Shown: positions 47,385-52,871 of the stretch, one piece after another
How the letters are laid out: each line of letters begins with the position of its first letter
Position numbering within the stretch: position 1 is the stretch's first letter
Source of the DNA: Deltaproteobacteria bacterium
GTDB taxonomy: Bacteria > Desulfobacterota > Syntrophia > Syntrophales > UBA8958
DNA length: 64,000 nt
NCBI GenBank assembly: GCA_029553375.1
Contig: JAKPCH010000095.1
Coordinates: 49,491-113,490, forward strand
Direction of reading: 5' to 3'
Notes under the pieces: model-generated
Told to the model about the DNA's origin: nothing
The model's input: the letters and a program-made list of their open reading frames with translations, nothing else
Databases searched by the model: none
Translations under genes and position numbers: made by a program

Positions 47385-48551
47385 ATGAGAGACGTTCTGA
47401 ACAGATTCGTCGCCTACTTCCACCAGCCCTTCGTTCAGGTCGCATCCTTCACCCTCCTCGTCGTGCTGTTGAGCTCCTCGTTGGTCTTCTATTTCGAGCA
47501 TGTTCACGGATCGGCCAATATCAACTCCCTCTGGGACGGCGTGTGGTGGTCCATCGTGACCATGGGGACGGTGGGCTACGGCGACAAATACCCCCTGACG
47601 GTCGGGGGGCGTATCGTAGGTATTCTATTGATTTTTTGCGGTGTGGGACTTATGTCTCTCTTCACGGCCACCGTCGCCTCGGCTTTCGTCGAGAGGCGCA
47701 TGAGGGAAGGAAGGGGATTGGAGGCGATCAAGGTGAGAGATCATGTCGTGATCTGCGGGTGGAACAATCACACGGAAGAGGTCCTCCAGGGACTGACGAT
47801 GAGGGGGACGGAAACCCGCACTTTCATCGTTCTCGTCAATGAACTCCCGTCCGACGACCTGGAGGCCCTGCGCCTGAAGTACGGGGGGACAAGGTTAAGG
47901 TTCCTGAGGGGCGATTTTACCCACGAAGAGGTGCTGATGAAGGCGAACATCGCCAAGGCCGCCGCCGTCGTCATCATGGCCGACCTGTCGGGGGATCACC
48001 CCCGCGACCGGCTCGACCAGCGGACCACCCTGGCCGCCCTGACGGTCAAATCCCTGGCACCCACCGTGAGGACCGTCGCCGAGCTCATCGATTCCCAAAA
48101 CGTGCCCCACCTCAGGAGGGCCAACGTGGAGGAGATCATCGTCCGCGGGGAATACGTGGCCTCCCTCTTGGCGGGTTCGGTGAATTCCCCGGGCCTCACC
48201 AGGGTCGTGTCGAACATCATGGGCAGCGGCGCCAAAAACAGCTTCCGGAGGGTCCCCATACCGGCCGATTACGTGGGTCGCCCCGCCCGGGATCTGATCG
48301 GCCATTTCCGCAAGGAGAACGCCCTCTTCATCGGTATCCTGAAAGAAAGGAAGGCCATGAAACTGGAGGATATCCTCACGGACGACACCTCCGTCATCGA
48401 TCGGTTCATCAGGGAGAGGCTCCGGGAGGCCAAGCGGGAATTCGTCGTCGAGAAGGACACGATGCAGGCCATCGTGAACCCCGACGACGATTATCTCGTC
48501 CAGGCGGAAGACGCGGCGATCATCATCGCCCGCGTCCCCTCCGCCAAGTGA
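47385..48551 (+). CDS. MthK-like potassium channel with RCK (TrkA-N/TrkA-C) domains
   Basis: Pore filter TMGTVGYGDKYP between TM helices; RCK HVVICGWNNHTEEVL. Confidence 0.92.
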   Translation: MRDVLNRFVAYFHQPFVQVASFTLLVVLLSSSLVFYFEHVHGSANINSLWDGVWWSIVTMGTVGYGDKYPLTVGGRIVGILLIFCGVGLMSLFTATVASAFVERRMREGRGLEAIKVRDHVVICGWNNHTEEVLQGLTMRGTETRTFIVLVNELPSDDLEALRLKYGGTRLRFLRGDFTHEEVLMKANIAKAAAVVIMADLSGDHPRDRLDQRTTLAALTVKSLAPTVRTVAELIDSQNVPHLRRANVEEIIVRGEYVASLLAGSVNSPGLTRVVSNIMGSGAKNSFRRVPIPADYVGRPARDLIGHFRKENALFIGILKERKAMKLEDILTDDTSVIDRFIRERLREAKREFVVEKDTMQAIVNPDDDYLVQAEDAAIIIARVPSAK

Positions 48552-48562
48552 GGCGGTCGGGC

Positions 48563-49072
48563 ATGGAAGCGGCGTCCATCGTCCTTAAGAAATCGGAGGT
48601 CTTCAAGAACCTGGAGGCCGAACAGATCCTCAAACTCCTCGCCATCTGTCGGCAGGTCACCTTTCCGGCCGGCAGGGACATACTGGTGGAAGGCGAGGTC
48701 GGTGACACCATGTACATCATGATGGAGGGGACCGTCGAGATCATCAAACGCTTGGTCATCACGGATGACGAGGGAAACGACGACGGAAGGAACAAGGTCT
48801 TCACCCGGCTTGACGCCTCGACCCACGCCGTCTTCGGGGAGATGGCCCTCCTCGAATCGCAGCGCCGAACGGCCACCGTGAGGGCGGTTACGGACTGCGT
48901 CCTCTTCGAGATCCGGAAAGACGATTTCCTGCGTCTGGCCGAGGAGGACAACCTCATAGGTTATCGGGTGGCATTCAATCTCGCCAGGATCGTCAGCGCC
49001 CGCCTGCGCAAAGCCGATGAGGAAACGGTAAAATTGACGACCGCCCTGAGCATCATTCTGAAAGAGATCTGA
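48563..49072 (+). CDS. Cyclic nucleotide-binding domain protein (no HTH)
   Basis: LLAICRQVTFPAGRDILVEGEVGDTMYIMMEGTVEII...HAVFGEMALLESQRRTATVRA cNMP-binding fold signature. Confidence 0.9.
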   Translation: MEAASIVLKKSEVFKNLEAEQILKLLAICRQVTFPAGRDILVEGEVGDTMYIMMEGTVEIIKRLVITDDEGNDDGRNKVFTRLDASTHAVFGEMALLESQRRTATVRAVTDCVLFEIRKDDFLRLAEEDNLIGYRVAFNLARIVSARLRKADEETVKLTTALSIILKEI

Positions 49073-49075
49073 GCC

Positions 49076-51178
49076 GTGCTCTTCACCCTCCTCGATAAGG
49101 ACAGGCTCCTGGACAGCATCTTTCGCGTCAGTCCCCTCTTGACGACGGAGGCGAATCTTTCTGAGATCCTCTCCAAGATCCTGGACGAATTGATCTACAC
49201 CTTGGGGTTCGATCGGGGGGTGATCCGTCTCTTCGACCCGTCCCGGCGCTTTCTGGAGACCCAGGTGGTGAAGAACTATGCCCCCGAGGACGAGGAGAGG
49301 GCCTTCGCCATCGCCCTCGACATGGAAAGCCACGACTGTCTCGCCACCAAGGTGGCGGGGAGCGGCGAGCTGATCGCGGTGGAGAAAGCCGCTTCGGACC
49401 CGCGTATCACGGCCACGGACCGCATGTTGACCCGTCTCGTCGACCGGGGCTCCATCATCTGCGCCCCCCTGAAGATCGGCGAGGAGGTGATAGGGACCAT
49501 CGCGGCATGGCGGGACGAGGAAACGGCCTTCTATCCCGAGGAGATCAGCCTCTTTCAGGCCTTCGCGAGTCAGATGAGCATCATCATCCATAACGCCAGG
49601 CTCTTCGAGGCGGACAAGGAGAAGATTAGGCAACTGATGGTCCTTCAGGAGGCGGTGACGGAACTAAACCTCCATCCCACCCTGGACAACCGCATCCCCG
49701 AGATCATCTTCAAAAGCGCCATGGAGATCGCCAGGGCCGAGCGGGCGCTGGTTTACTTTTGGGACGTCGAGAGGGACCGCTGTCTGATCAACGACGGGCG
49801 GGAGCTTGTGATGGAAGGGAAGGCGGCCTGCGACGAGAAGATCGGGGGGACCATCATCACCAGGGCCATCGAGGAGAACACCGTCGTGGCGGCCGACGGT
49901 GCAAAGGGGACGAAACCCCTGTTCGAGGGTTTCCCTTCCGAGATCGCCATCCCCATCATGATCAAGGACAAGTTCAAGGGGGCCCTCTACCTGGCGAAGA
50001 GGAAGGGGGGGTACACACAGGACCAGATCAACGTCCTCGACATATTGGTCAAGAACGCCGCCACGGCCTATGACAACGCCATCATGAACTCCCTTCTCCA
50101 AATGGAGGCCGAGTCCCTCAAGACGGAGGTGGAGAAACTCAAGGAGCGGGAAAGCGAGCTGCTGGGGTTTCACGACATCCTGGGCCGGTCCCGCAAGATG
50201 ATCGAGATCTTTCACGTCATCGCCGACGTGGCGGATCACAACACCAACGTCCTCATTCAGGGGGAGAGCGGAACGGGGAAAGAGCTCATCGCCAGGGCGA
50301 TTCACCGCCACAGCTCGCGGGCCGCAAAACCCTTCGTGGACGTCAACTGCGCCGCCATTCCCCCCACCCTCCTGGAGAGCGAACTTTTCGGTTACGAGGC
50401 GGGCGCCTTCACGGACGCGCGGAAGCGGAAGGTAGGCCTCCTGGAATACGCCAACGGCGGGACGATGCTCCTCGACGAGATCGGCGAGATGAACATCCAG
50501 CTCCAGGCCAAATTCCTGCGTATGTTGGAAGACGGCCATATCCGGCGTCTCGGGGGCACGGAGAACATCCCGGTGGACGTGAGGTTCATCTTTTCCACCA
50601 ACCGCGATCTCGCGGAGATGGTCAGAAGGGGGGGCTTCCGGGAGGATCTATTTTACCGAATCCGCGTCGTACCGATCATGATCCCGCCCCTGAGGGAGAG
50701 ACCAGACGACGTGATGCTCCTAGCCGAGCATTTCCTCAGGGAGTTCAACAAAAAGTTCAGCAAAAAAGTCCGGGGTTTCAACAGGGAGGCGGAGGAGATC
50801 CTCAAGGCCTACCCCTGGCCGGGCAATGTGCGGGAACTGAGGAACATCATCGAACGGGTCATGATCCTCAAGAGCGTCGGCCATTGGATCACCCCCGAGG
50901 ACCTCCCCGCCGAGGTCACCCAGGGGGGCCGGGGAGGGACGGACATCAAGATGGAACCCCTCCTGCAGCAACTCCCCCTCGACGGTATCGATTACGAGAG
51001 GGTGATCAACAAGATCGTCACGGATCTGAAGGGCCGCCTCCTGGACAACGCCCTCCAGAGGGCCCGGGGCAACAAGTCGGAAGCGGCGAAACGTCTCGGC
51101 ATCTCGCGTTTCAAGTTCATCAGGGAACAGAAGAAACTCAACCATCGTCACACCCCCGGCGCCTCGCTCGATGTGTGA
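49076..51178 (+). CDS. Dual-GAF sigma-54-dependent transcriptional activator (GTG start)
   Basis: Two GAF regions, AAA+ (GESGTGKELIARAIHRHS, GYEAGAFTDARKRKVG, GGTMLLDEIGEM), C-terminal Fis HTH (NKSEAAKRLGISRFKFIREQKKL). Confidence 0.95.
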   Translation: MLFTLLDKDRLLDSIFRVSPLLTTEANLSEILSKILDELIYTLGFDRGVIRLFDPSRRFLETQVVKNYAPEDEERAFAIALDMESHDCLATKVAGSGELIAVEKAASDPRITATDRMLTRLVDRGSIICAPLKIGEEVIGTIAAWRDEETAFYPEEISLFQAFASQMSIIIHNARLFEADKEKIRQLMVLQEAVTELNLHPTLDNRIPEIIFKSAMEIARAERALVYFWDVERDRCLINDGRELVMEGKAACDEKIGGTIITRAIEENTVVAADGAKGTKPLFEGFPSEIAIPIMIKDKFKGALYLAKRKGGYTQDQINVLDILVKNAATAYDNAIMNSLLQMEAESLKTEVEKLKERESELLGFHDILGRSRKMIEIFHVIADVADHNTNVLIQGESGTGKELIARAIHRHSSRAAKPFVDVNCAAIPPTLLESELFGYEAGAFTDARKRKVGLLEYANGGTMLLDEIGEMNIQLQAKFLRMLEDGHIRRLGGTENIPVDVRFIFSTNRDLAEMVRRGGFREDLFYRIRVVPIMIPPLRERPDDVMLLAEHFLREFNKKFSKKVRGFNREAEEILKAYPWPGNVRELRNIIERVMILKSVGHWITPEDLPAEVTQGGRGGTDIKMEPLLQQLPLDGIDYERVINKIVTDLKGRLLDNALQRARGNKSEAAKRLGISRFKFIREQKKLNHRHTPGASLDV

Positions 51179-51181
51179 TCT

Positions 51182-51198
51182 CCGCACACCATGTGCGG
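51182..51198. promoter_or_regulatory. Candidate enhancer (UAS) 1: 17-bp 6-N5-6 dyad
   Basis: CCGCAC-ACCAT-GTGCGG. Confidence 0.6.
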
Positions 51199-51259
51199 AT
51201 TTAGCACAACCTTCAATCGCCCATGAACAGCACCCTGCATCCCTGTCCAGGGGATATGG

Positions 51260-51276
51260 TGTGCGTATATCGCACA
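51260..51276. promoter_or_regulatory. Candidate enhancer (UAS) 2: 17-bp 6-N5-6 dyad
   Basis: TGTGCG-TATAT-CGCACA. Confidence 0.65.
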
Positions 51277-51403: not shown

Positions 51404-51419
51404 TGGCACGATGTTTGTA
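51404..51419 (+). promoter_or_regulatory. Candidate sigma-54 (-24/-12) promoter
   Basis: TGGCAC-GATGT-TTGTA against consensus TGGCAC-N5-TTGCW (one mismatch). Confidence 0.65.
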
Positions 51420-51449
51420 TATGTAAATGGGCGAAGGAGAAAACCTCCG

Positions 51450-51632
51450 ATGGCTGAGGAGGCGAAAAACAGGGGAGCAACCCCCCGGACAAAGAGAACG
51501 GGCGGCTCCTCAGGCGCGGAAAAGGAATTTTTCCTTTCCCTCGACAGTCCGGTCGATGGTGAGCGGGAAGAGAAAGGCGGAGACGGGGCGAGGAGAATCC
51601 CGGATCCCCTTCGAGATAGATCCCTTGAGTAA
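51450..51632 (+). CDS. Candidate 60-aa charged small protein downstream of the sigma-54 promoter
   Basis: ATG 51450 preceded by AAGGAG (51434-51439); MAEEAKNRGATPRTKRTGGSSGAEKEFFLSLDSPVDGEREEKGGDGARRIPDPLRDRSLE, TAA stop. Confidence 0.4.
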   Translation: MAEEAKNRGATPRTKRTGGSSGAEKEFFLSLDSPVDGEREEKGGDGARRIPDPLRDRSLE

Positions 51633-51640
51633 TTAATGCC

Positions 51641-51778
51641 GGCGGGTGGTTTTATTCCCTCCTTTCCACCCGCCGCCCCCCTTTGACTGCGGGCCTGAAA
51701 GGGAGAGACGGACAAAGCCCTTTCAGTTTTATATAGGCGGATGGTTTCGGTTCCCTCCTTTCCCATCCGCCTTTTTTT
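51641..51778 (+). ncRNA. Candidate sRNA or 3' UTR module with three hairpins, two homologous with C-rich loops
   Basis: GGCGGGTGG-[TTTTATTCCCTCCTTT]-CCACCCGCC; CTGAAAGGG-N14-CCCTTTCAG; GGCGGATGG-[TTTCGGTTCCCTCCTTTC]-CCATCCGCC-TTTTTTT. Confidence 0.45.
51736..51778 (+). terminator. Rho-independent terminator (third hairpin plus T7)
   Basis: GGCGGATGG/CCATCCGCC followed by TTTTTTT. Confidence 0.8.
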
Positions 51779-52871
51779 ATACGTTGAACCTGAACAGGGC
51801 GATGTCCCCGTCCTTGATCTCGTAATCCTTCCCCTCGGACCGTATCAGGCCTTTTTCCTTGGCCTGTGCCATTCCCCCCGCCGCCATGAATTCGTCGAAA
51901 TGGATGATCTCGGCCCTGATGAAACCCCTCTCCATGTCGCTGTGGATCTTTCCCGCCGCCTGGGGGGCCCGGGTGCCCCGGGGGATGGTCCAGGCCCGCA
52001 GTTCCGGCCCGACGGTGGTGTAGAAGGTGATGAGGTCCAAGAGGGAATAACCTTCCCGGATGAGTTTGACGAGCCCCGACTCCTCCAGACCCAGGTCTTC
52101 CAGGAAGGCCTGGCGTTCCTCCGGGTCGAGTTCGGCCATCTCCGCCTCCAGGTCGCCGCAGATGACCACCATGCCTGCCCCGTCCCGTGCGGCGACTTGA
52201 CGGACCTTTTCGATGTAGGTCCCTCCCCCCCTTAGTTCTTTCTCGCTCACGTTGGCGACGTACAGGACCTTTTTGGCCGTCAGGAGATGGAGGTCCTTGA
52301 GGGCCTCCCCGGCCTCTCCGCCGAGGGACAGGGTGTAGGCCGGCAAACCCCGGCCGAGGGCGTCTTTCAGGGCGGCGTAGACCTCGAGGCTCTTGGCGGC
52401 GGCCCGGTCGCCGGCCTTGGCGGCCTTCTCCGTCTTCGCGATCCGCCTCTCCAGGGTCTCCAGGTCCGCCAGGAGGAGCTCCGTCTTGACGATCTCGATA
52501 TCCCGGGCCGGGTCGATGGTCCCGTCCATGTGGACCACGTCTGGATTGTCGAAGCAGCGCACGATATGGACCACCGCGTCCACCTCGCGGATGTGCCCGA
52601 GAAACTTGTTCCCCAGGCCTTCGCCGCGGCTCGCCCCCTTGACGAGGCCGGCGATGTCGAGGAATTCCATGACCGTCGGTGTGACCCGCTGGGGCTTGAC
52701 CCTTTGGGCGATGAGTTCCAGGCGCCTGTCGGGGACGGCCACGACGCCCACGTTCGGTTCGATGGTGCAGAAGGGATAGTTGGCGACGGCCGCGCCCGCC
52801 GCCGTCAGGGCGTTGAAGATGGTGGATTTACCCACGTTGGGGAGACCGATGATACCGCAGCGGAAGCCCAT
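51777..52871 (-). CDS. ychF: Redox-regulated/ribosome-associated ATPase YchF
   Basis: MGFRCGIIGLPNVGKSTIFNALT, NYPFCTIEPNVGVV, TGS C-terminal ending DGDIALFRFNV. Confidence 0.97.
   Translation of the reverse strand: MGFRCGIIGLPNVGKSTIFNALTAAGAAVANYPFCTIEPNVGVVAVPDRRLELIAQRVKPQRVTPTVMEFLDIAGLVKGASRGEGLGNKFLGHIREVDAVVHIVRCFDNPDVVHMDGTIDPARDIEIVKTELLLADLETLERRIAKTEKAAKAGDRAAAKSLEVYAALKDALGRGLPAYTLSLGGEAGEALKDLHLLTAKKVLYVANVSEKELRGGGTYIEKVRQVAARDGAGMVVICGDLEAEMAELDPEERQAFLEDLGLEESGLVKLIREGYSLLDLITFYTTVGPELRAWTIPRGTRAPQAAGKIHSDMERGFIRAEIIHFDEFMAAGGMAQAKEKGLIRSEGKDYEIKDGDIALFRFNV

Follow-up and report, generated by a model that had tools for sequence, protein, structure and literature searches.

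Which protein reads the inverted repeats that lie directly behind the stop codon of an enhancer-binding protein (EBP) gene in a member of the Syntrophales, and what would they control? The repeats are found in a 64,000-nt stretch of assembly GCA_029553375.1 (contig JAKPCH010000095.1, Deltaproteobacteria bacterium, Syntrophales), here called the window, whose positions serve as coordinates throughout. An earlier note on this DNA had described two 17-bp dyads at this place and had read them as upstream activating sequences (UAS) of the NtrC-family type. To follow this up, orthologues of the product of 49076-51178 were gathered from 60 Syntrophales genomes and from Syntrophus sp. GWC2_56_31. The DNA 3′ of each activator stop codon was compared across the orthologous loci, of which 42 (order Syntrophales) were usable, and the window's own genome (2.4 Mb) was scanned by sequence pattern.

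The proposed activator gene and its neighbours

The EBP gene, the proposed activator, occupies 49076-51178 on the plus strand and encodes GAF domains, an AAA+ domain with the motifs GAFTDA and GESGTGKE, and a Fis-type helix-turn-helix (HTH), with Pfam matches to Sigma54_activat (2.6e-68), GAF_2 and HTH_8. Its orthologues are 48-70% identical across the order and conserve the HTH core LGISRYKFIREQKK, and in 42 of 44 loci GAFTDA replaces GAFTGA. The protein falls below the NCBIfam cut-offs for every listed equivalog, NifA and NtrC included (375.8 bits vs 528.85 for NifA, 329.7 vs 558.6 for NtrC and 248.7 vs 763 for GlrR, also known as QseF). Upstream on the same strand lie a gene for a K+ channel/RCK-domain protein (47385-48551; Pfam Ion_trans_2 and TrkA_N), which is found 5′ of the EBP gene in many relatives, and a gene for a cyclic-nucleotide-binding-domain protein (48548-49072; Pfam cNMP_binding), whose place is likewise supported by synteny. 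The pair at 47385-49072 accompanies the activator gene in many relatives, which suggests a possible link to the signal that the activator senses, and nothing beyond such a hint.

Three conserved sites behind the activator gene

Both dyads of the earlier note are present exactly as described, dyad 1 being CCGCAC-ACCAT-GTGCGG (51182-51198) and dyad 2 TGTGCG-TATAT-CGCACA (51260-51276). Measured from their centres, the dyads are separated by 78 bp and precede a -24 element at 51404 by 214 and 136 bp; CGCACACCAT (51183-51192) is indeed the exact reverse complement of 51256-51265 (ATGGTGTGCG). A perfect 6-N5-6 dyad is by itself unremarkable, the window holding 27 against about 22 expected from composition; what exceeds chance here is the sequence. 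The two-site parse did not survive comparison, as the orthologous loci display three sites: A (51172-51188, TGTGTG-ATCTC-CGCACA, 11/12 match), which overlaps the EBP stop codon in a position kept in orthologous loci, B (51192-51208, TGTGCG-GATTT-AGCACA, 11/12 match), which starts 20 bp after A, and C (51260-51276, TGTGCG-TATAT-CGCACA, 12/12 match), 68 bp after B. Dyad 2 is a genuine site, namely C. Dyad 1, which had been grouped with it by its 6-N5-6 architecture, is inside-out relative to dyad 2 and is no separate site, consisting of the right half of A and the left half of B. With cores 15 bp long and starts 20 bp apart, the facing halves of A and B always leave a 5-bp gap and read as an inverted repeat; the long inverted repeat CGCACACCAT/ATGGTGTGCG arises because the same half-sites are involved.

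The consensus across orthologous loci reads (T/C)GTGCG-N5-CGCAC(A/G), with a near-invariant core GTGC-N7-GCAC around an A/T-rich spacer. Conservation is 94-100% at most core positions and 76-94% at the fourth base and the base opposite it in the palindrome, whereas linkers and 5-bp spacers drift. The half-sites, whose covariation among orthologous loci the earlier note proposed as a check, keep their GTGC/GCAC cores and show no arm-to-arm covariation, symmetric pairs being observed as often as expected; missing arm covariation is usual for protein-binding sites. In most loci A and B stand in tandem just past or overlapping the stop codon with C further on, and this arrangement is clear in 33 of the 42 loci, incomplete in four (L036, L037, L039, L040) and absent in five (L020, L022, L042, L023, L041). 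The spacing is as constant as the sequence: from start to start, A and B are separated by 20 bp in 29 of the 33 clear loci and by 18-19 bp in the others, and B and C by 66-70 bp in all 33. Scored as a spaced triple, the window reaches 34 of 36 at 20 + 68 bp (maximum among dinucleotide shuffles 21), and the clear loci reach 27-34 of 36 against shuffle maxima of 19-22. Where an EBP locus lacks the triple, an RNA copy of the kind described below lies elsewhere or further downstream in the genome, or just one site is recognisable.

The genome-wide scan proposed in the earlier note gave a single copy of TGTGCG-N5-CGCACA in the 2.4-Mb genome, and sites with at most one mismatch are confined to A, B and C, all within 90 bp; as no further such site exists, the activator appears to serve a single promoter there. 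A search of the 60 relatives for the spaced triple, blind to gene and RNA, returned 31 matches vs 0 for the reversed control, of which 23 lie by their coordinates at the EBP gene, six at unlinked RNA copies and two elsewhere. At the last two (L193 and L194, family f18) the triple and a -24/-12 element are present, and what follows is a lone 5′ helix of the GGGCCTTTGAATG...CATTCAAAGGCCC type; the C-rich hairpin described below is absent from the DNA examined at both, and they are possibly a second kind of target.

A candidate sigma-54 promoter and its transcript

Downstream of C, a candidate sigma-54 -24/-12 element is found on the plus strand at 51404-51419 (TGGCAC-N5-TTGTA), matching TGGCAY-N5-TTGCW at 10 of 11 positions. 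It begins 144 bp from the start of C, and in relatives this distance falls into two classes, 80-99 or 144-187 bp. The best match per locus reaches 10-11 of 11 in most relatives, which have TTGC at the place where the window has TTGT in the -12 region. The genome encodes rpoN (PF04552, 3.7e-67), and a promoter scan around the site found no sigma-70-like promoter. An IHF site between UAS and promoter is common, not essential, in sigma-54 EBP systems; here, IHF sites between C and the promoter showed no enrichment over shuffles.

The proposed transcript runs on the plus strand from about 51428-51429, a start placed about 12 nt past the -12 element, to a U run at 51782 (51428-51782, about 350 nt). 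The order of elements downstream of the promoter is conserved among relatives, which share a module of an optional 5′ helix, a small ORF, hairpin I with a C run, a small stem, and hairpin II with a U run. The 5′ element, GAGACC...ACCTTT...AAAGGT...GGTCTC just past the -12, was seen at L010-L012, L014-L016, L024-L026, L031, L033 and L036; its outer GAGACC...GGTCTC helix is obvious by eye, and its RNAalifold consensus from the automatic alignment is weak.

In the window the small ORF (51451-51633, plus strand) encodes 60 aa with an EFFLSLDS motif, and homologous small ORFs with FFLS/FFLPE motifs recur in distant relatives and in unlinked copies. Among related copies dN/dS is mostly 0.14-0.53, one very close pair with seven changes giving 1.43, and by this sequence measure the ORF is under purifying selection. 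Proteins of this kind, of 60-80 aa, highly charged and with one or two motifs, were seen in the window, at L003-L007, L010, L011 and L017, and further at L166, L167, L181-L183, L187 and L188; they are probably disordered. Most RNA copies contain the ORF, while several, for example L019, L027, L029, L030, L169 and L170, lack it and retain the promoter and hairpin I. The ORF belongs to no Pfam or NCBIfam family, the ORF of one relative giving a weak Pfam match below cut-off.

Hairpin I (51640-51675, plus strand) is formed by CGGCGGGUGG-UUUUAUUCCCUCCUUU-CCACCCGCCG with the loop UUCCCUCCUUU and is followed by a C run; in the alignment 99.1% of cells are paired and two-sided changes occur at three pairs. 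A small stem, CUGAAAGGG...CCCUUUCAG (approximately 51687-51725), and hairpin II (51736-51778), both on the plus strand, likewise have a consensus fold with two-sided changes. Hairpin II carries the same C-rich loop followed by U7 and is the likely terminator, and relatives usually have the same loop and U run at this point; when the full transcript of the window is folded to minimum energy, it is not set apart as a simple terminator. The loop sequence UUUNNNUUCCCUCCUUU, which occurs twice, is among the most conserved parts. The minus-strand reading, in which the loops would read GGA, was considered and is disfavoured by the direction of the promoter, the U run and the tolerated G-U pairs. Judged from its sequence, the transcript would have the traits of a trans-acting small RNA, with its own promoter, a terminator and conserved structure. 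No Rfam match reached gathering score in 20 loci, the best matches in the window being far below gathering and at chance level, and the RNA and the small protein are in no family of Rfam, Pfam or NCBIfam. Other C-rich hairpins in the own genome were sought, and none was convincing.

Distribution of the RNA and its unlinked copies

The distribution of the RNA was followed with a covariance model, R1, built from hairpin I, which matches the window hairpin and 46 of the 60 relatives. In the class as a whole 86 of 155 genomes have a match, and in a draw of 395 genomes across the phylum only seven do, all from Syntrophales, so that the RNA occurs in none of the sampled genomes outside the order. 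It tracks the EBP orthologue, being present in 42 of 43 genomes with the orthologue vs 3 of 16 without it (Fisher p = 1.8e-9, shared ancestry ignored); for this count an orthologue was scored as present at a best E <1e-140, and one genome with a fragment only was left out.

In several genomes, further copies of the RNA stand apart from the activator gene. Seven unlinked copies (L166, L167, L169-L171, L173, L174) have the triple at 20 + 65-69 bp and a -24/-12 element upstream; five hairpin hits (L168, L177, L179, L185, L186) have no upstream triple. The copies at L166 and L167 are extra RNA genes of one genome (G005) with their own enhancer, and those at L169-L171 (genus g9), which have no small ORF, precede their EBP gene by about 8.5 kb. 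In genus g22 the activator gene is without adjoining sites, and distant RNA copies carry one or two A/B-type sites and the promoter, C not being recognisable. In genome G044, which is a single contig of 3,179,300 bp, the activator orthologue (L195:1383-4852) is interrupted by an insert with a plus-strand ORF of 412 codons, judged by eye to resemble a transposase, and a distant RNA copy retains A/B-type sites and the -24/-12 element.

Discussion

We propose a model in which the EBP controls, from an enhancer directly behind its own gene, the transcript that begins further downstream. Dimers of the EBP would bind the three 17-bp sites (A at 51172, B at 51192, C at 51260). A and B are placed two helical turns apart on one face of the DNA, which suggests side-by-side dimers on that face, and C about 6.5 turns further. 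An EBP oligomer activated by its signal would then loop to sigma-54 RNA polymerase at 51404-51419, and transcription would begin near 51429. The resulting transcript would encode the small, probably disordered FFLS/FFLPE protein and end in two hairpins sharing the loop UUCCCUCCUUU, of which hairpin II would act as terminator. The sites and their spacing, the promoter element, the hairpins and the conservation of the ORF rest on comparison among loci; from these we infer that the EBP binds and loops, where transcription starts, that a signal is involved, and how RNA and peptide act. That A-C serve the adjacent EBP as upstream activating sites is near certain by this comparison, their binding being predicted, and to the joint reading of enhancer, promoter and transcript we assign a probability of about 0.86. 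What the earlier note had seen as NtrC-family-type UAS thus holds as to their nature, that of activating sites of the adjacent EBP correctly placed for a sigma-54 promoter, and fails as to their number.

Two other accounts of the sites can be set against this model. As dyad 1, CCGCAC-ACCAT-GTGCGG, stands right behind the stop codon and could form a stem, the dyads might be RNA hairpins that terminate or stabilise the activator operon transcript at its 3′ end, and not protein sites. We hold this to be extremely improbable: fixed spacing of 20 and 66-70 bp, conserved GTGC/GCAC and absent arm-to-arm covariation are the behaviour of DNA sites, there is no T run after dyad 1 and nothing there in a terminator scan of the plus strand, and the triple also stands before RNA genes that have no EBP gene in front. 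It is also very improbable that the sites belong to some other regulator, NtrC- or CRP-like, although the 6-N5-6 shape is common to NtrC sites and the gene directly 5′ of the EBP encodes a cyclic-nucleotide-binding protein. The latter has no DNA-binding domain by Pfam, the motif is GTGC-N7-GCAC whereas NtrC arms run the opposite way round, and both the triple and the RNA track this EBP orthologue, whose HTH is conserved.

Accepting the EBP as activator, its product could be read in other ways. The transcript may do no more than encode the small FFL-motif protein, with hairpins that are simply 3′-end structures, and the conserved ORF (dN/dS mostly 0.14-0.53), recurring in distant relatives and unlinked copies, would agree with this; we nonetheless think it rather unlikely, given that several ORF-less copies retain promoter and hairpin I and that the loop is highly conserved and present twice, whereas a terminator would not need a loop sequence. 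A sponge resembling CsrB or CrcZ, in which the hairpin RNA would titrate an RNA-binding protein instead of pairing with mRNAs, could account for near-identical loops repeated in one transcript and for the several gene copies in some genomes, yet the loops, with UUUNNNUUCCCUCCUUU a C/U stretch, are without the GGA that CsrA needs, and we judge a sponge unlikely. We favour instead a small RNA in the hairpin part whose loops would pair with the purine-rich Shine-Dalgarno regions of mRNAs. This is favoured by analogy with LhrC, discussed below, and by the likeness of CCUCCUUU, contained in the loops, to the end of 16S rRNA (anti-Shine-Dalgarno); the 16S-end pattern was found in 0 of 4 genomes searched, and we put such pairing at slightly under an even chance. 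If it holds true, targets should be enriched for AAAGGAGGG near their start codons.

Several known systems resemble this circuit in part. Sites of NtrC and NifA, which also have a Fis-type HTH, are palindromes of about 16-17 bp, NifA reading TGT-N10-ACA, and the arms of NtrC sites stand in the opposite order to GTGC-N7-GCAC here. In Vibrio the sigma-54 EBP LuxO drives Qrr, a multi-copy small RNA family, under a quorum-sensing two-component input and with an RNA unrelated to ours. A likeness in kind is seen in QseF (GlrR) and glmY of Enterobacteriaceae, where three UAS and a sigma-54 promoter control a small RNA that adjoins the regulator genes (PMC6075780). As is predicted here, three UAS, a sigma-54 promoter and a small RNA lie beside a regulator gene; QseF is in contrast a two-component regulator with UAS of TGT-N12-ACA, as against TGT-N11-ACA here, IHF assists it at glmY and was not detected here, and the present RNA has no Rfam match. 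In Desulfovibrio vulgaris, also of the former Deltaproteobacteria, the genes of the EBPs DVU0653 and DVU0679 each have a sigma-54-dependent ncRNA directly downstream (PMC4641369), an order of EBP gene and sigma-54 RNA that in our case is predicted from sequence. Those EBPs are two-component response regulators with GAFTGA/GAYTGS, whereas the EBP here has GAF sensors and GAFTDA, and the hairpin is confined to the order among the sampled genomes of the phylum. Finally, loop UCCC motifs of Listeria LhrC act against the region before the start codon (PMC4132741); LhrC is an unrelated RNA of an unrelated organism and is under the two-component system LisRK. Literature searches in an open library turned up nothing relevant on small RNAs of Syntrophus, whether sigma-54-driven or not, an absence from that library that is not proof. 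As far as the libraries searched show, the RNA, the small protein and the 20/66-70 geometry would be new.

Taken at its widest, the model describes an order-wide system in which a GAF-domain EBP and a rigid three-site enhancer control only a dual-function transcript, FFL protein plus tandem-hairpin RNA mimicking the anti-Shine-Dalgarno, that is multi-copy in some genomes and would broadly tune translation in slow-growing syntrophs; we offer this version tentatively, as something that may well prove otherwise. In the window's own genome, the EBP seems to be devoted to a single promoter, from which it would switch on a post-transcriptional regulator. Its product is probably a new regulator of this kind, under sigma-54 control and conserved across the order, and the rigid 20/66-70 bp geometry may serve as a natural comparative data set for EBP oligomers on enhancers. 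Largely uncultured syntrophs would thereby gain a testable circuit, with activator, three sites, promoter and product contained in about 2.7 kb.
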